Source: Lactobacillus pasteurii DSM 23907 = CRBIP 24.76 | GTDB lineage: Bacteria; Bacillota; Bacilli; Lactobacillales; Lactobacillaceae | Direction: 5' to 3' | NCBI RefSeq assembly: GCF_000297025.1 | Contig: NZ_CAKD01000022.1 | Span: 1 to 64,000, forward strand | Length of the DNA stretch: 64,000 bases | Part shown: positions 57,464-64,000 of the stretch, piece after piece | How positions within the stretch are numbered: position 1 is the first letter of the stretch | Layout: each line of letters starts with the position of its first letter | Program-made: the position numbers and the translations under genes | The notes under the pieces: model-generated | Seen by the model: the letters and a program-made list of their open reading frames with translations, nothing else | Database searches by the model: none | What the model was told of the DNA's origin: nothing

Positions 57464-59359
57464 TTAGTCAGTTGCATATTCTTTAACATTTAGGTCATGC
57501 TTTTTGCTGTTAGCATCAATTAAGACAAAATGCGATCGTTGGCTATTCTTAAAATCACTTGGATAACGGCCTGACTTGGTTGCATAGTCTGTATAAATTC
57601 CTACACGTATCTTGTCATAATTATTAACATCTTGCATTAAAGCAAAAATTGCATTTGCTTCAATTGTAGATAAATCATTGAGATCCTTGACTTTTATTTT
57701 CTTGCCGTCAAGTCTCTTTTGACTAATCTGAACCTGATCAATCAAGCTGGCCATCACCATTTGAGTTGTTTGACTGTCATTTTTTGCCTTAGTCAAAGAT
57801 GCTAAGGCTTGATCATAGGCTGCTCTTGTTTGATAATCACTTAAACGGTACTTATCGCTAGCCTTAACTGTATCGACTGCAGCTAATAGTGTATCTGCCC
57901 GATTCTTAAGTTCTTTACTTGCAATTTTATTATAATCAGCCTCAGCTTCTTTGGCAGTATTTTGCGCCTTAAGCTTAAGGCCAGTTACCGTATCAGCGTC
58001 ACTAGCCTTAACATAAAGATCACAAGAGCTTCTCTCTGGTTCAGATGACTCATCATCACCGTATGGTTCGACAATTCTAGCAGTCAAATGGTAATATAGT
58101 TCAGCCTTATTTTCAGAACTATTCCAAATATAGCGCGCTTGATCAGCTACAAACACGCCGCTACCAGACTTCAGACTGCCAATAACTTTGCCATTTACAT
58201 CATAGCTTGAAACAGTCTTATTAAAATCAACAATTGTATTGTACTTGTCAAGATAGCGACTAGTCTGTATATGTTGTCTAATGTAGAAATTTGCACTTAC
58301 TTGATCTTCTACACTATTATTAGGGTATTCTTCACCCGGACCCCAATCAAGATAATAGTCGCTGCCTTTAATATGGTAGTAGATTCTTTGTACATCTCCA
58401 GATCCATAAGATACGGCATAATCAGAAGTGACCTTTTGACCGCGATGATAAATCTTGGTAGATGGATTTAATTTAGTATCTATAGCTACTTGGTCATGCT
58501 TGATTGTTAACTCAACCGGACCCTTAGCAAAAATAATTCGACCATTGAGCAATTCTAGATTAATCGTTTTGACATAGGCATTCTTGCCAATTGCAATGTA
58601 GGTTGAATTCTTGATCTTCTTAGTTGGCAAAGTATAGCTAGCACTTGATTTATAAGCTTGTTTGGTGAAAAATACACTGTTTTTTGTAGCTTTTTGCCAT
58701 TTTCCGGCATATTTAACAAGGCTATATTTACCTAAAACAGTCTTACCCACACGTTTGCCATTCTTGTCATAAACATAGGCATTGTGATTCAACCTTACTA
58801 CGCCTTTGCCGTCGACTTTAGCAATATATTGCGCATCGACGTAGTGGCCTTTGCCAATATTGTATAGAACTTTAGGGGCATAGGTAGAAGCAATTTTGCC
58901 CAGATATTGAAAGTCACTGCCAGCCTTTAAATAGCTTTGACCATGAAAGTTCTTGATTCGTTTGCCATTTTTGTCATAGATATAAGAATTTTTGTTGATT
59001 CTTAGATAGATCTTACCGTCTTTTTCATATGAACTGGTGGCATTGGCAGCCTTCACAAATCCTCCATCGCCTAAGGATTGATAGGTATCCTTGCCAATAT
59101 AAGTAATTAGATCTAATGCATTTTCAAGGGCATGGGCCTTACCCTTAATAACTACTGGTCTGCCATAGTATTTATAACTTTTATTAGAACTGACATTGGT
59201 GTTGCCAATATAATTTCCTTTTTTATCCACGACCGAAACTTTACCATCGTAAGTTGGCGCGATGGTGATGGTTTGCGTTGAAGAAGCCTGTACTGGTCTA
59301 TTAAAAAATAGCCCCGCTCCTAGCACAGAAGCACATACGAGTATCAATTTTCCCTTCAT
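57464..59359 (-). CDS. Large SLAP-repeat surface protein sharing a novel domain
   Basis: A 631-residue secreted protein. The signal peptide ends near RPVQASS (about residue 27). About 245 residues with several SLAP-like repeats follow (YDGKVSVVDKKGNYIGNT, LRINKNSYIYDKNGKRIKNF, RLNHNAYVYDKNGKRVGKTV, YIAIGKNAYVKTINLELL). Residues about 280-470 match the C-terminal domain of the 6620-7813 protein: RIYYHIKGSDYYLDWG against AIYHIKGTDYWIY, and ENKAELYYHLT against ENKAELFYRLH. The last 160 residues include a FIVAR-like helix pair and end in YATD. AAGGAAGGTG before ATG 59359 sets the start. It is anchored through SLAP motifs rather than LPXTG. Confidence 0.83.
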   Translation of the reverse strand: MKGKLILVCASVLGAGLFFNRPVQASSTQTITIAPTYDGKVSVVDKKGNYIGNTNVSSNKSYKYYGRPVVIKGKAHALENALDLITYIGKDTYQSLGDGGFVKAANATSSYEKDGKIYLRINKNSYIYDKNGKRIKNFHGQSYLKAGSDFQYLGKIASTYAPKVLYNIGKGHYVDAQYIAKVDGKGVVRLNHNAYVYDKNGKRVGKTVLGKYSLVKYAGKWQKATKNSVFFTKQAYKSSASYTLPTKKIKNSTYIAIGKNAYVKTINLELLNGRIIFAKGPVELTIKHDQVAIDTKLNPSTKIYHRGQKVTSDYAVSYGSGDVQRIYYHIKGSDYYLDWGPGEEYPNNSVEDQVSANFYIRQHIQTSRYLDKYNTIVDFNKTVSSYDVNGKVIGSLKSGSGVFVADQARYIWNSSENKAELYYHLTARIVEPYGDDESSEPERSSCDLYVKASDADTVTGLKLKAQNTAKEAEADYNKIASKELKNRADTLLAAVDTVKASDKYRLSDYQTRAAYDQALASLTKAKNDSQTTQMVMASLIDQVQISQKRLDGKKIKVKDLNDLSTIEANAIFALMQDVNNYDKIRVGIYTDYATKSGRYPSDFKNSQRSHFVLIDANSKKHDLNVKEYATD

Positions 59360-59448
59360 TTGTAACACCTTCCTTAGTACTTTAATTATACTATTGGTAG
59401 CTGTTAATATTAATTAAAAATGACTAAAGATAAAGTTCAACACAGAAA

Positions 59449-59474
59449 AAATAGGCACAGCAAGGTGCCTATTT
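59449..59474 (-). terminator. Terminator downstream of the R-M remnant
   Basis: AAATAGGCAC pairs with GTGCCTATTT; on the minus strand TTTTTT follows. It closes the minus-strand unit 59477-61679. Confidence 0.85.
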
Positions 59475-59476
59475 CC

Positions 59477-59883
59477 TTATAACTTATTGATTTGCTTTTG
59501 CAAATCTTTCAATTCATCCTTCTTCAGGAAGTAGCCAAGAATTTCAAGATAGTATTGTGCCTTTTTCTTATCTTCTTGATCAATCATCTGTTGGATCATC
59601 TGGTAAGCAAGTTTGACAATATTTTCATCTGGAGTTAGAGGAATATCCTGGTCGGCAAGTTCTGCTCTAACTAACATAATATTTGGACGAATATTGACAG
59701 ATTTATCCATTTCCGCGATGTACTTAAGTTCTGATCGTACCATCGGCGACTTGTAGTAGCGCTGGCTGAAGATGTCACAATTAGCAGCCAATTGATATTG
59801 GCCCTTTTCAACATAGTAATATCCGAGATTGCGGTAATATCTGGCTAGTTCATCTGGGTGAACATACTCGCTAGTAATAAAGT
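59477..59883 (-). pseudogene. TPR-like C-terminal fragment fused to res
   Basis: After the shared residues KNFITSEYV the frame continues DELARYYRNLGYYYVEKGQY, AANCDIFSQRYYKSPMVRSE and YYLEILGYFLKKDELKDLQK, a helical repeat (TPR-like) C-terminus unlike any restriction subunit. It is joined to the N-terminal res fragment in a shifted frame. A deletion has therefore removed most of res and the 5' part of some downstream gene. The function of that lost gene is unknown. A protein made from the hybrid frame would need to cross the frameshift at the A7 run (59884-59890). Confidence 0.6.
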
Positions 59884-60176
59884 TTTTTTGTTCCTTCTTT
59901 AATACTTGGGGTAGGCACAACAATAATGAACTTAAACAAGCCATATTTCTTATGAAGCTCGTACATTAACCGAGTATAAACGTAGGTCTTTCCAGTACCA
60001 GTTTCCATTTTAATATCAACGTTAGCTTCATCTTTATAACGTTGATAGATTAGTGGATTTGCGTAGACGTAATCCGCATCTGCATCATCCGTTCTTGTGT
60101 CAACACCTTTGAATGCTTTGTCGATTGCGGCCAAAGCTTCTGTTTGGTGTTCTAGTGTCTCTAATTTGATTTGCAA
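59884..60176 (-). pseudogene. Type III restriction subunit Res, N-terminal fragment
   Basis: A TTG-started frame reads [20 protein letters not shown], then Walker [21 protein letters not shown] and [15 protein letters not shown], the standard start of type III Res helicase-nucleases (normally about 900-1000 residues). It then frameshifts in a run of seven A/T (59884-59890). In the other frame the expected [13 protein letters not shown] continues, after which Res sequence ends. So one base in the A7 run breaks the frame, and a deletion removes the remaining 800 residues. The stop of the mod gene lies 2 bases upstream, so the pair was mod-res. Confidence 0.75.
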
Positions 60177-60177
60177 T

Positions 60178-61679
60178 TTAATACCTCTTGATCAAATTTA
60201 CTCTGCTGTCTATTTGTTGTAATCCAGTTTCTAGTTCTTTTAAGTCCGCACCGGAAAATGAATAACCAAATAATACAATTGTCTGCACTGTTAATTGATG
60301 CGTGCCAAGTAAATTCAATAATTCTTTCGTACTCTCACTATTCCAGTAAGTATCAGTTAAATATAATCTAGTATCATCCACAACAGTTGCTTTATAGCCT
60401 GCTATATCTAATTCATTGATCTTAGTATCGAAAGAATATCCATCTTTAGCCAACCAAGTAGTAAGAATTGTTTGTTTGCCTGTAGCTGATCCATCAACGT
60501 TGAGAGCTTCACTAGAATATGAATTTAACATATCGCTGAACATTGTATCGCCATTTGGATCAAAGTCATAGATTTCACTGAGCAGCTTCTTGGTTGGTTT
60601 AACAACTCTATAGTGCTTAAAACTACCATCAAAATCTTCTGAAATAGTTAATGCGTTATCTTCCTTAATCTTAGCTGCTGCTCTACGAATTTGCTCACGG
60701 GAAATCTCATCAATTGAACGATAACCTGCATCATATGTTGCCTTTCCACCTTTGGTTGGTATTTCTCTACCATCACTGTTAGTGTTAAAAGTAGGCTCAT
60801 TGCACCATGATAAATTTGCGGTTACCGCCATCTTCTGCATTTAATTGCATTACTGCATCGGCTGTTGTAGAGGAACCTGCGAAGAAATCGAGGACCAGAG
60901 AATCGGAATTTGAGCCAATCATAATTAAATCTTTTATAAATTCTACAGGTTTGGGATATGGGAATATTCTTTCGCCCAATAATTTCATACCTTCCCTGGT
61001 GCCATTACCACTACTATACTCAGGTTTATATAAAATAGATTGGGTCTTTTTTCTCTCGGAGCATTGACGCCTGTAGACTTTAAATTTGCTCCTTTCTTGT
61101 AATAACCCTTTATCAGCTAACAACTTCTTCGCCAAAACCAACCTAGGATACATAAAAGTCAACCACGCAGAGTGACTAGACTTCCCCTGAATACTCTTCA
61201 GTCTCTCAATCTGATTATCATCAAGTCCCAGCATGTCATGCAATTGCTTATCAGAATATTCAAACGAGTCTGGATAAACAAAGTCGCCATTACCAGTATT
61301 ATACGGAGGATCAATGTAAATCATATCTACTTTGTCTTCATAATTGCCTTGCAAATGTCGTAAAACTTCCAAATTATCGCCAGTAAAGAATAAGTTTTTA
61401 CTATTTTTACCTTCGCCATTATTTTGCTCTTCATCAGGCACAATAACCGTAGTTGGCATTTCCCCCGCTTGTCTTCTAGCGTAATCCTTACCAATGAAGT
61501 TTAATTGGAACCCATCCCTCAATTCATTGATATTCTTCTCAGCTAATTGATCCCTAAACTTATCGATATCGAAATTATCATCTCTATCGAAAAACTCAGG
61601 CAGCTTTTTCCTTTAGCTTAGTGAGAAAAGCTGTATTTGGCTTAACTTGGAGGTTGAACTTTTCGCTATCACTAAGCAA
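60178..61679 (-). pseudogene. Type III DNA methyltransferase Mod, multiply frameshifted
   Basis: Reading from TTG 61679 (AAGGAGGTG six bases upstream) gives LSDSEKFNLQVKPNTAFLTK, a frameshift at the T5/A5 run 61605-61609, then LPEFFDRDDNFDIDKFRDQL. The catalytic motif IV DPPYNTGNGDFVY is intact (about 61290-61330), as is motif I-like VLDFFAGSSTTADAVMQLN. Near 61050-61100 the frame passes through nonsense sequence (LLQERSKFKVYRRQCSERKK), the target-recognition region is largely missing, and a third shift near 60835 moves the frame to NEPTFNTNSDGREIP and the C-terminal DIAGYKATVVDDTRLYLTDT part. At least three lesions leave no working methyltransferase. Confidence 0.8.
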
Positions 61680-61732
61680 GGGAAACACCTCCTTTTAATT
61701 TGAAGTTATTACTAATATCCTGCATCAAAAAA

Positions 61733-61765
61733 GAGTTTACTAATCCTCTAAGAATTAGTAAACTC
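61733..61765 (-). terminator. Terminator in front of the mod gene
   Basis: A perfect 12-bp stem GAGTTTACTAAT / ATTAGTAAACTC with a 9-base loop; on the minus strand it is followed by TTTTTTG. It lies 54 bases upstream of the mod start. Above it, a short minus-strand stretch contains AAGAGGTAAAAAG, then a five-codon frame MSTAR and a CGTTGAT / ATCAACG hairpin (61790-61809). It may be an attenuator in the mod leader or the end of a separate short RNA. Confidence 0.6.
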
Positions 61766-61960
61766 TCGTTAAAGTGGTTGACAAATAAGCGTTGATCTAT
61801 ATATCAACGTGCTGTGCTCATACTCTTTTTACCTCTTTTTTAAATTCGCCGTTATATCGACATTTTGATATTATCAATTATAGTTTAAATTTTAGCTACA
61901 AAAAACAAACTATAATGATGTTATAAGAAATTCGCATCTAAAATATGTTACAATGGCCAT

Positions 61961-62084
61961 AGAAAAAGGGAGATGTGTGCGAAACATCTCCCCTAACAGA
62001 TCCGCAAATGCGGTGGCCTAATTTAATAGTAAGTTATTTAACAACCACTAAATCAGTCAAAGTTATTAGTGGTTGTTTTGTTTT
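61961..62084 (+). ncRNA. Structured small RNA A (paralogue of RNA B)
   Basis: An extended -10 promoter TGtTACAAT (61946-61954) is followed by three hairpins: GGGAGATGT / ACATCTCCC (61968-61992), CCGC / GCGG followed by TGGC (62002-62017) and a terminator CAACCACTAA / TTAGTGGTTG with a T-run (62042-62084). The same order and the same middle module, ATCCG...CGGTGGC, occur in RNA B at 62669-62800. On the minus strand the first hairpin is also followed by TTTTT, so it can terminate minus-strand transcripts from the GNAT gene. No ORF explains this region. I see no toxin gene opposite RNA A; an orphan antitoxin RNA is one possibility. Confidence 0.5.
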
Positions 62085-62094
62085 ATGTCCATAC

Positions 62095-62547
62095 CTACAT
62101 AGTTTTACTCATGACATAAACTGTTACATCAAAGCTCTCATTCCCTGGCATTTTTCCCGATTCTTCTGAGACTACTCCAAAGCCAAAATGCTCATATAAT
62201 CGCTTGGCCCGGTCATTACCCTTTAAAACTTCCAAATAGATTTTTTCGGCAGGCATCTTTTCAAGTGCAGCCGAGATCAACTGACTAGCAATTCCTTGTC
62301 TTTGATATGCTGGATCGACATATAGCCATGCAATTTCATTCTCAGTAAATGCAATAAATCCTCGAACCGATCCAGCTTTTTCTGCTACCAAGATCTGATA
62401 GCTAAACAAGTCTTCTCTTTGGGCAGCAATTTTTAATGGTAAAAATGCATCATCTAAGTTAGCAACGGATAACTCTTGCTTTCGCGCTGCATCATGAATT
62501 AAGCAAAGTGCTGGAAAATCTTCTTCCAAATAATTTCTTATCAGCAA
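62095..62547 (-). CDS. GNAT family N-acetyltransferase
   Basis: A 150-residue acetyltransferase. Acetyl-CoA binding motif: AWLYVDPAYQRQGIASQLIS (about residues 75-94), with the Q/RxxGxA loop and the preceding strand GSVRGFIAFTENEIAWLYV. The C-terminal LEVLKGNDRAKRLYEHFGF is also typical. The longest frame starts at 62580 without a ribosome binding site; AAAGGGG lies 8 bases before TTG 62547 (LIRNYLEEDF), the usual family N-terminus, so that start is preferred. Substrate unknown. It sits between the two structured RNAs. Confidence 0.85.
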   Translation of the reverse strand: MLIRNYLEEDFPALCLIHDAARKQELSVANLDDAFLPLKIAAQREDLFSYQILVAEKAGSVRGFIAFTENEIAWLYVDPAYQRQGIASQLISAALEKMPAEKIYLEVLKGNDRAKRLYEHFGFGVVSEESGKMPGNESFDVTVYVMSKTM

Positions 62548-62668
62548 ATCGAATTCCCCTTTCAGTAAATCTATTATCAATTTGGTTAATTATATCATAG
62601 CTACCTACTCGGCTCATGATTTAGCTACAAGCTGATGAATTATTTAGCAGGAAATGCTATAATATGGG

Positions 62669-62800
62669 TAAATAAAAAAGAGAGCTACCCCCGTAGCTCT
62701 CTTTGCACGAATCCGTTATAAACGGTGGCACGATTATATCAACTAATAAGTCGCTTGACCCTTGCCAAAGTAGTTCAGCGGCTTATTAGTTTGCCTTCTT
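62669..62800 (+). ncRNA. Structured small RNA B, antisense to the 3' end of the membrane peptide gene
   Basis: An extended -10 promoter TGcTATAAT (62655-62663) leads into AAAGAGAGCTAC / GTAGCTCTCTTT (62677-62704), then CCGTT / AACGG followed by TGGC (62713-62729), then ACTAATAAG / CTTATTAGT (62742-62790) with a T-rich tail. The order matches RNA A, including ATCCG...CGGTGGC. The last hairpin lies over the stop codon of the minus-strand peptide gene 62786-62947, and the first hairpin is on the minus strand a textbook terminator for that gene's message. RNA and message would pair over about 110 bases, as in type I toxin-antitoxin pairs of the TxpA/RatA kind. Confidence 0.5.
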
Positions 62801-62947
62801 ATTTCTTCCACAATCGTGGAAGGCTGTAATCAATTCTTTTAAGGCTTGTAGCCACTTGGTTGTCTTTTTGGTTAGTAAGGTTAAACTTGCTACCAAAACG
62901 CCCAGCAGATTAATCACAGCGATGACAGACATAAGTAAGTCCGTCAT
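62786..62947 (-). CDS. 53-residue hydrophobic membrane peptide, candidate type I toxin
   Basis: The frame reads MTDLLMSVIAVINLLGVLVA, then SLTLLTKKTTKWLQALKELI and TAFHDCGRNKKAN: one membrane helix (residues about 4-25) followed by a basic amphipathic segment. AAAGGAGGT lies 13 bases before the ATG, rather far; a 14-codon overlapping frame starting at TTG 62954 has the ideal spacing and may couple translation. The message ends at the GAGAGCTAC hairpin (62677-62704) with six T. RNA B is encoded opposite its 3' end. The size, charge pattern and antisense RNA recall type I toxins, but the peptide matches none I know by sequence. Confidence 0.5.
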   Translation of the reverse strand: MTDLLMSVIAVINLLGVLVASLTLLTKKTTKWLQALKELITAFHDCGRNKKAN

Positions 62948-63018
62948 CGGTCAAACTGTACCTCCTTTCAATGAAATCTAGGTCAATAGTTCTTACACCA
63001 TTGGCACCACCTCCATGA

Positions 63019-63058
63019 AACGAAAGTACCACCGCTCATACTTTTTCGTACTTTCGTT
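63019..63058. repeat. Perfect 11-bp inverted repeat upstream of the membrane peptide
   Basis: AACGAAAGTAC (63019-63029) and GTACTTTCGTT (63048-63058) pair perfectly around an 18-base centre. It lies between the PTS gene terminator and the peptide gene, where the minus-strand promoter of the peptide should be. Its centre has no T-run, so operator or leader hairpin are the likely roles. Confidence 0.55.
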
Positions 63059-63114
63059 ATTTTATCAAAAATACTGTTCCAAGAATAGATTTTTGTAATA
63101 TTTATATGCATAGA

Positions 63115-63140
63115 AAAGCACACCATAAAAGATGTGCTTT
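63115..63140 (-). terminator. Terminator of the PTS gene
   Basis: AAAGCACA pairs with TGTGCTTT around a 10-base loop, just after the PTS gene stop on the minus strand. Confidence 0.75.
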
Positions 63141-63151
63141 TTTGCCGATAA

Positions 63152-64000
63152 TTAATCTTCTGCAGGTTTACGCCATAAACCGTAAATAGTTCCTGCAATT
63201 ACCATCCCTATCAATAATGAAGCAATGAAGAATGGGGCATTGCGAATTAATAAAACTACCCATAAACCACCATGTGGTGCAGGCACATTTACTTGCCATA
63301 GTTGAGCCAAAGCACCACCGATTGCTGAGCCAACTACGCTCGAACCGATGACTCTAACTGGATCAGAAATTGCAAATGGGATTGCCCCTTCAGTAATAAA
63401 TGAAATTCCAAGTACCCAGTTACTGATACCAGCTTTTCTTTCTGACTCGGTAAATTTCTTAGCCCAAATTGTTGTCGCAAAGGCAATTGCTAGTGGTGGA
63501 ATCATACCACCAATCATTACTGATGCCATCATGTTGCCTTTCCCAGTTTCAGCTAAAACTCCGATCGCTGTAGTATAAGCTGCCTTGTTAACTGGTCCTC
63601 CAAGGTCAAACGCCTGCATCCCAGCTAGGATTGCACCAAGTAAAATTGCATACCCTGCTAAGAAACCAGCGATAATTCCGCCGATAAAACCAGAACTACC
63701 TTTGGATTGAATGACACTGGCAGCTGGTTGCGTTGCCATATATCCACCAACAAAACCGGGCATCAAAGCTGGACGATCGCCGATTGAATAAGCGATAAAT
63801 CCTGCCAAAACTGGAATCAAAAATGAAAATGCATAGTTTCCTAGTGAGTTCAAAAAGATAAAACTAGTTGAATCCTTACCAGCTGCTTGCTCAAGCATGA
63901 ACGAGATTGCCATAAGAATACCGCCACCTACAACAAATGGAAGCATGTTCGAAATTCCGTTCATCAAATCTTGATAAACCTTTTGCCAAATACTCTTTTC
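63152..64000 (-). CDS. PTS fructose-type EIIC (partial at window edge)
   Basis: The frame is open to the window end, so only the last 282 residues are seen. The membrane region begins KVYQDLMNGISNMLPFVVGG and has about eight spans. Family landmarks of the fructose/mannitol EIIC group are MNGISNMLPFVVGGGILMAI, MPGFVGGYMATQPA, and FITEGAIPFAISDPVRVIGS, the conserved glutamate-containing substrate loop. EIIA and EIIB parts, if fused as in FruA, would lie beyond the window. It imports and phosphorylates fructose or a related hexose. No other PTS component is in view. Confidence 0.9.
   Translation of the reverse strand, partial: EKSIWQKVYQDLMNGISNMLPFVVGGGILMAISFMLEQAAGKDSTSFIFLNSLGNYAFSFLIPVLAGFIAYSIGDRPALMPGFVGGYMATQPAASVIQSKGSSGFIGGIIAGFLAGYAILLGAILAGMQAFDLGGPVNKAAYTTAIGVLAETGKGNMMASVMIGGMIPPLAIAFATTIWAKKFTESERKAGISNWVLGISFITEGAIPFAISDPVRVIGSSVVGSAIGGALAQLWQVNVPAPHGGLWVVLLIRNAPFFIASLLIGMVIAGTIYGLWRKPAED

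Follow-up and report, generated by a model that had tools for sequence, protein, structure and literature searches.

The window, the whole stretch of 64,000 nucleotides of Lactobacillus pasteurii DSM 23907 = CRBIP 24.76 that was analysed, very probably encodes a TxpA/RatA-like type I toxin-antitoxin pair, formed by a plus-strand antisense RNA (RNA B) and a small hydrophobic peptide gene on the minus strand. At B the sequence places the antisense RNA convergent with the 3' part of the hydrophobic-peptide gene, which is the layout of TxpA/RatA. Comparison with relatives shows homology of the predicted RNA to RatA, recurrence of the convergent 3'-overlapping layout in many genomes, hydrophobic peptides led by putative Shine-Dalgarno sequences, and a conserved reading frame. 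A TxpA/RatA-like convergent system had been proposed in the original prediction; it is upheld as the best reading of the locus, and the RNA family is Rfam RatA.

RNA B would be transcribed from an extended -10 promoter and would pair along its whole length with the 3' untranslated region (UTR) of the peptide mRNA, which would itself end at hairpin 1 of the locus. By analogy with txpA/RatA, the resulting duplex would be cut by RNase III. The full-length peptide mRNA is predicted to be closed by its 5' leader, in which GCGGUGGU would pair with the 3' UTR site lying under the antitoxin's middle module. The antitoxin, carrying a copy of the leader motif, would displace the leader on the 3' UTR and so give the duplex for RNase III. 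A second RNA of the window, RNA A, would be an orphan antitoxin, matched in sequence to another peptide gene located elsewhere in the genome.

Features of the locus

The features are listed below with coordinates, strand and basis.

61946-61954, plus strand: extended -10 promoter of RNA A, TG-T-TACAAT (sequence; box conserved in the aligned RNAs)
61961-62082, plus strand: RNA A, RatA-type, putative orphan antitoxin of specificity group 2 (predicted ends; RF01776 40.8 bits, E 0.0028)
61966-61994, no strand assigned: hairpin 1 of RNA A, doubling as a minus-strand terminator (terminator scan)
62002-62017, plus strand: middle module of RNA A, CCGC-AAAU-GCGG with UGGC tail (hairpin 62002-62013, tail 62014-62017)
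62040-62077, plus strand: terminator hairpin of RNA A (the convergent GNAT gene has its stop about 18 bases away)
62655-62663, plus strand: extended -10 promoter of RNA B, TG-C-TATAAT (sequence; conserved in the aligned RNAs; start predicted)
62671-62797, plus strand: RNA B, putative RatA-type antitoxin (predicted ends; RF01776 26.7 bits, E 2.4)
62677-62704, no strand assigned: hairpin 1 of RNA B, its minus strand the presumed toxin mRNA terminator (terminator scan, covariation)
62713-62729, plus strand: middle module of RNA B, CCGUUAUAAACGG hairpin with UGGC tail (CCGTT/AACGG 62713-62725, tail 62726-62729)
62742-62792, plus strand: terminator hairpin of RNA B, with GCCA 62764-62767 in the apical loop region (folding, covariation)
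62786-62947, minus strand: gene of a toxin-like membrane peptide of 53 aa (ORF list, homologue comparison, dN/dS)
62960-62968, minus strand: Shine-Dalgarno sequence of the peptide gene, AAAGGAGGU (9 bases; 12 bases from the AUG)
63028-63035, minus strand: toxin leader motif GCGGUGGU (copies the antitoxin middle motif; predicted 3' UTR pairing)
63059-63066, minus strand: putative -10 region of the toxin mRNA, GATAAAAT (from the leader sequences)

The RNAs have a predicted length of about 125 bases. Both had been described as three-hairpin RNAs with extended -10 promoters, and sequence, folding z-scores, covariation and conservation of the -10 box agree with that description. The folding z-score is -4.5 for RNA A and -7.4 for RNA B, with 0 of 200 shuffles as good in each case. 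Across 150 aligned RNAs the extended -10 is conserved, T being present in 142 and G in 137. The promoters of A and B were not listed by a sigma-70 scan, since that scan demands a -35 match. A terminator scan of 61700-63200 listed five sites against 0.9 expected, including minus-strand terminators at both first hairpins, where they had been proposed. RNA B had been placed opposite the 3' end of the 53-residue gene; the ORF is there, but, as judged from predicted ends, the terminator hairpin of RNA B overlaps only its last 7 bases, and it is the presumed 3' UTR of the toxin mRNA that the RNA overlaps at length.

Elsewhere in the window, the minus strand carries broken type III restriction-modification genes in separate short frames at 59871-61522 (a methylase, N6_N4_Mtase; an EcoP15I-type C-terminal domain; pieces of ResIII). 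At 57464-59368, also on the minus strand, a 634-residue protein with two SlpA surface-layer domain matches is encoded.

Membership in the RatA family

The Rfam RatA model (RF01776) matches RNA A at 40.8 and RNA B at 26.7 bits, both below the gathering cut-off of 49, which no RNA of this genome attains (best 43.4 bits). The genome (1.9 Mb, 30 contigs) holds 20 RatA matches at E ≤10, and 16 of these are also matched by R1, a covariance model built from 15 of this genome's RNAs, RNA B included. In the training RNAs of R1, 90% of cells pair, and the covariation score lies above 500 of 500 shuffles; RNA B, as one of the model's own 15 sequences, scores 130.8 bits.

Within the genus, 46 of the 61 genomes, this one among them, have matches to R1, up to 22 each. 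R1 was also tried on 30 RatA loci from other genera of the order that exceed the RatA cut-off, and it recovered every one, at 57-86 bits for the best match per locus. Of 295 genomes of the order, 144 carry a match to the RatA model itself, which exceeds the cut-off in 117 of them; 14 control genomes gave none. Five of 20 sister loci pass the RatA cut-off (L043, 82.0 bits; L041, 79.3; L058, 52.9; L062, 50.4; L037, 50.0), the last of which lies opposite a member of the window's own peptide family; for eight of the 20 the RatA model gave no match at E ≤1. On the opposite strand, the toxin mRNA side, six of 20 relatives meet or exceed the rli28 cut-off. The window's toxin mRNA matches rli28 (RF01492) weakly, at 28.2 bits (cut-off 45, E 1.2).

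Alignment A3 holds 150 of the 155 matches. The top 16 of 8,515 column pairs by APC-corrected mutual information all lie within hairpins 1, 2 or 3, in an alignment fitted to the model structure, which favours hairpin pairs. These comparisons support homology of the predicted RNAs A and B to RatA, the antitoxin of TxpA/RatA. RNA B has no match in the plasmid or phage collections and RNA A none in the plasmid collection. Rfam matches to snR13, OrzO-P and PhrS in 59000-64000 lie below their own cut-offs and were taken as chance.

The 53-residue peptide and its homologues

The window's peptide has no match in Pfam (E ≤10) or NCBIfam, neither Hol_Tox (PF16935) nor PepG1 being matched, and none in the plasmid or phage collections. 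Pfam includes an Fst model; with no Pfam match of any kind at E ≤10, the peptide was not assigned to Fst/Ldr (par).

A search of its own genome with the peptide gave seven places at E ≤10. The seventh (E 0.22) lies inside a 572-residue frame, and the other six each lie opposite one of the RNAs: four are open, one has an internal stop (C21:19317) and one is a fragment (C9:67508). In five of 60 other genomes of the genus the peptide was found, each time directly opposite an independently found RNA. Among named genomes, a scan with the peptide gave one locus, from an uncultured Lactobacillus. One stop codon falls in the aligned stretch of four of these five matches; in three it is the natural one behind the DLWK end, and for the fourth (G011, L052) no qualifying ORF was found. 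Four relatives with the DLWK end are likewise without a Hol_Tox match. Over the first 45 codons, dN/dS is about 0.08-0.39 in the 10 pairs of five peptide copies, which points to a conserved reading frame; poor conservation in relatives had been named as an outcome that would speak against the original prediction, and the frame has held.

Near the end of the gene, copy B lacks one A in the TTCCACAAATCG stretch. This one-base deletion shifts the frame, so that its C-terminus reads HDCGRNKKAN instead of the relatives' (H/Y)DLWK, and toxin B may thereby be weakened or dead. The frameshifted C-terminus, with which the copy may be inactive, counts against the proposal that peptide B is a toxin. The FHDLWK end is encoded by an inverted repeat, TTCCAC..GTGGAA (window 62806-62821 and copies), so that it could be conserved as RNA as well as protein.

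It is possible, if doubtful, that B is a relic, with the peptide gene dead by deletion and RNA B an orphan kept by drift or as protection against other copies. The deletion removes the conserved DLWK end, and other copies in the genome carry a stop or are fragments, as at the two places named above. Against this reading, the membrane segment, start, Shine-Dalgarno sequence, leader motif and antitoxin pairing of B are intact, B and the copy nearest to it have a dN/dS of 0.08 across the first 45 codons, and the lone missing base may be an assembly error.

Orphan RNAs and pairing groups

Of the genome's 16 RNAs, five lie opposite an open peptide gene and two opposite a broken one; the remaining nine have no peptide gene opposite. 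By predicted pairing they fall into two main groups, of 12 and three, with one RNA apart. No Shine-Dalgarno-led ORF was found opposite RNA A. Its predicted duplex with the 3' UTR belonging to the peptide gene at C18:163683-163832 has an energy of -154.3 kcal/mol, and that with the 3' UTR of B one of -67.7 kcal/mol; the best shuffles reach -76 and -77. The C18 peptide is dissimilar to peptide B. Since RNA A fits the 3' UTR of the C18 gene and not that of B, it is, on predicted pairing, an orphan antitoxin of another specificity, together with C18_149320, and fits this second peptide gene elsewhere in the genome. It had been taken for an orphan copy of RNA B: orphan it is, with no ORF opposite, but it belongs to the other specificity group.

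The five peptide genes that are still open could be targets in trans for RNAs of these groups. That the orphans are kept for this reason, silencing paralogous or incoming toxin mRNAs in trans, we consider rather unlikely. When the eight group 1 RNAs without an intact gene are paired with the 3' UTR of each of the four group 1 genes that are open, the energies are -94 to -167 kcal/mol, with best shuffles of -57 to -83 kcal/mol, and 10 of the 16 RNAs share an identical ATCCGTTATAAACGGTGG in the module, both of which would fit such a role. Paralogues will, however, pair by descent whether the pairing is used or not; moreover, the loops of the RNAs vary between copies, and for C21_71342 no pairing is predicted with the 3' UTR of any of the five open genes (-42 to -62).

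Peptide genes opposite the RNAs in relatives

The original prediction had proposed a covariance-model search for hydrophobic minus-strand ORFs opposite related RNAs, and the search agrees with it: a Shine-Dalgarno-led hydrophobic ORF lies opposite 77 of 152 related RNAs among the matches listed, against 1 of 152 on the mirrored side, 2 of 139 at shifted places and 23 of 3,040 in Markov sequences. No qualifying peptide gene was found opposite the other 75 of the 152 matches listed. An ORF qualified with 25-90 residues, a Shine-Dalgarno sequence of at least 5 bases, a hydrophobic stretch, and a stop inside the later part of the RNA or at most 60 bases beyond. The sample comprised 16 own matches plus 38 of 57 and 103 of 114 further ones, duplicates, opposite-strand matches and weak matches having been dropped; of 157 matches 155 were distinct and three of these were excluded for short flanks, among them C9:67635, which has an open peptide gene. 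The loci are the best-scoring among the matches listed and not a random sample.

Grouping of the 77 peptides from the matches listed (phmmer E ≤0.001, single linkage) gave eight groups, of 49, 13, 5, 5, 2, 1, 1 and 1 members. The largest is Hol_Tox-like: three members tested match Hol_Tox, with E down to 1.1e-17, and a fourth falls below the cut-off. The PepG1 and ComI models match the Hol_Tox-like peptides below their cut-offs (PepG1 25-46 bits against 70). The group of 13 contains the window's peptide, and 10 of its members have the DLWK end or are B. Tested members of the other groups, which cover all but the L115 singleton, have no Pfam match; that last singleton of the 77 (L115 868) is probably a wrong frame. 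One and the same RNA scaffold thus accompanies dissimilar peptides.

That these are ordinary regulatory small RNAs acting on other mRNAs, with the opposite ORFs there by chance, is very improbable: the 75 of 152 matches listed without a qualifying ORF, and RNA A, opposite a GNAT gene that stops about 18 bases away, would suit it, but for the RNA family as a whole it is contradicted by comparison, through the 77 of 152 matches listed against controls of 1 of 152 and 2 of 139, the significant peptide homologues opposite these RNAs, and the Hol_Tox family peptides opposite others.

Several arrangements of the units were observed. At L071 754-4649 ten RatA-type units stand in a row, with five Hol_Tox-like 30-residue and five dissimilar 54-residue peptides. 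Two convergent RatA-type RNAs share one terminator hairpin at L061 1414-1633, where no qualifying toxin ORF was found. Just beyond the window, two tandem RatA-type RNAs lie 268 bases apart (L011 1360-2006; G000 contig C9 67359-68005), accompanied by a toxin fragment and an open toxin gene. Contig C9 ends inside a toxin leader, perhaps because of the tandem RNA repeat.

The middle module

Many toxin mRNA leaders carry GCGGUGGC, or a close form of it, and so repeat the motif found in the middle module of the antitoxin. Because antitoxin and toxin 3' UTR are complementary, the leader can pair with the 3' UTR. This fold-back is present in 66 of 74 predicted toxin mRNA folds (74 of the 77 mRNAs were folded), against 32 of 222 with shuffled leaders; the eight without it in the minimum-energy fold include the mRNA of the group 2 peptide. 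At RatA loci of other genera it is present in 15 of 19 folds, against 27 of 95 with shuffled leaders (35 matches, ORF in 21, 19 folded). In the window's toxin mRNA the helix is part of the minimum-energy fold, and the whole-RNA z-score is -10.4.

Leader and module also change together. Over 63 loci, double changes number 10 against 1.8 expected, at p ~1e-4 with related loci treated as independent, and kinship among loci inflates this permutation test; a dereplicated set of 50 loci gave eight against 1.4 expected (p ~1e-4). Rare forms common to leader and module are UGAC (L056, L085), UAG (L076, L079, L088) and UGGUGGC (L072, L078, L084). The 63 loci tested are those left after 13 of 76 in which the search pattern found no motif; in 10 of these 13 the antitoxin motif is GCGGUGGT and the leader is divergent, which counts against a universal rule. 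Leader and module differ at some loci, for example GCGGCGGU against GCGGUGGU in five. Given the copied motif, the predicted fold-back and the co-changing variants, the middle module probably mimics the leader and competes with it for the 3' UTR.

A pseudoknot of the antitoxin, in which the UGGC tail would pair with GCCA in the terminator loop, is suggestive only, on the evidence of covariation. Double-change cells number 36 against 12.7 in shuffles (144 distinct sequences; 0 of 500 shuffles as high) and 13 against 6.9 in a second set (38 sequences, three of them weak opposite-strand matches; 0 of 500). Column pairs with a double change do not exceed shuffles (3 against 3.0; 2 against 2.2). Among 8,515 pairs, the APC ranks of the pseudoknot pairs are 50, 373, 2116 and 5021, so that only one stands out; in the second set they are 414, 2632, 6200 and 6259 of 7,750.

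Comparison with known systems

RatA of txpA/RatA in Bacillus subtilis resembles the window's RNAs in the covariance match, the convergent 3' overlap and the small hydrophobic peptide. RatA is described with four stem-loops and a terminator (PMC3531473), as against three hairpins in the window's RNAs, which lie under the Rfam RatA cut-off and face a toxin of another sequence family than TxpA. For txpA/RatA, the RatA terminator is reported to make loop-loop contacts and RNase III to cut an extended 3' duplex (PMC3531473); the cleavage is also covered in a review (PMC6562991).

On Listeria plasmids, an arrangement with RatA opposite rli28 has already been published, with a BsrH-like peptide (PMC9484302); the window's peptide lies outside Hol_Tox, and its genome has 16 RNA copies. 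In Lactobacillus casei Zhang, five rli28 copies are expressed and a ratA lies on a plasmid (PMC8249650). Growth of that strain improved on deletion of one rli28 copy (PMC8249650), as would be expected of a toxin mRNA. With RatA opposite rli28 already in print for Listeria plasmids and both names in use in L. casei Zhang, the present locus is a variant of something known.

PepG1/SprG1 and other Hol_Tox type I toxins are linked to the locus by the Hol_Tox peptides found opposite the same RNA family in sister species, whereas the window's own peptide matches neither Hol_Tox nor PepG1. The 3' overlap is shared with bsrG/SR4 of B. subtilis, in which the antitoxin alters the structure of the toxin mRNA (PMC6562991). 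A BsrG model matches below its cut-off opposite the RNAs of three relatives (L042, L045, L048); the window's peptide has no such match, and a leader-mimic module is not part of the description of bsrG/SR4 in the accessible text of that review (PMC6562991). In PMC11228461, txpA/RatA is named a candidate for structural control of the toxin mRNA, because that mRNA seems unprocessed.

A literature search, with most subscription papers outside its reach, returned nothing on how many RatA copies a genome carries, on RatA RNAs that are orphans, or on a module that mimics the leader. Added here, and not found in the literature searched, are peptide groups that Pfam lacks, the number of copies together with the orphan groups, and the leader-mimic module.

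Implications

It may be speculated, as an unlikely reading, that RatA-type antitoxins form a modular scaffold able to control many unrelated membrane peptides because its middle module copies the toxin leader and competes with it for one 3' UTR site, and that lactobacilli carry up to 22 copies in pairing groups, with trans-acting orphans as an inherited immunity set against toxin modules. For the favoured reading, in which RNA B and the minus-strand peptide form a TxpA/RatA-type pair, the consequence is that an RNA not recognised before is placed in a known antitoxin family, to which groups of toxin peptides absent from Pfam are added. One antitoxin scaffold is reused for dissimilar peptides and is heavily copied in Lactobacillus. 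The reading of the middle module as a leader mimic would give a reason both for the conservation of the module and for the silence of full-length RatA-type toxin mRNAs.
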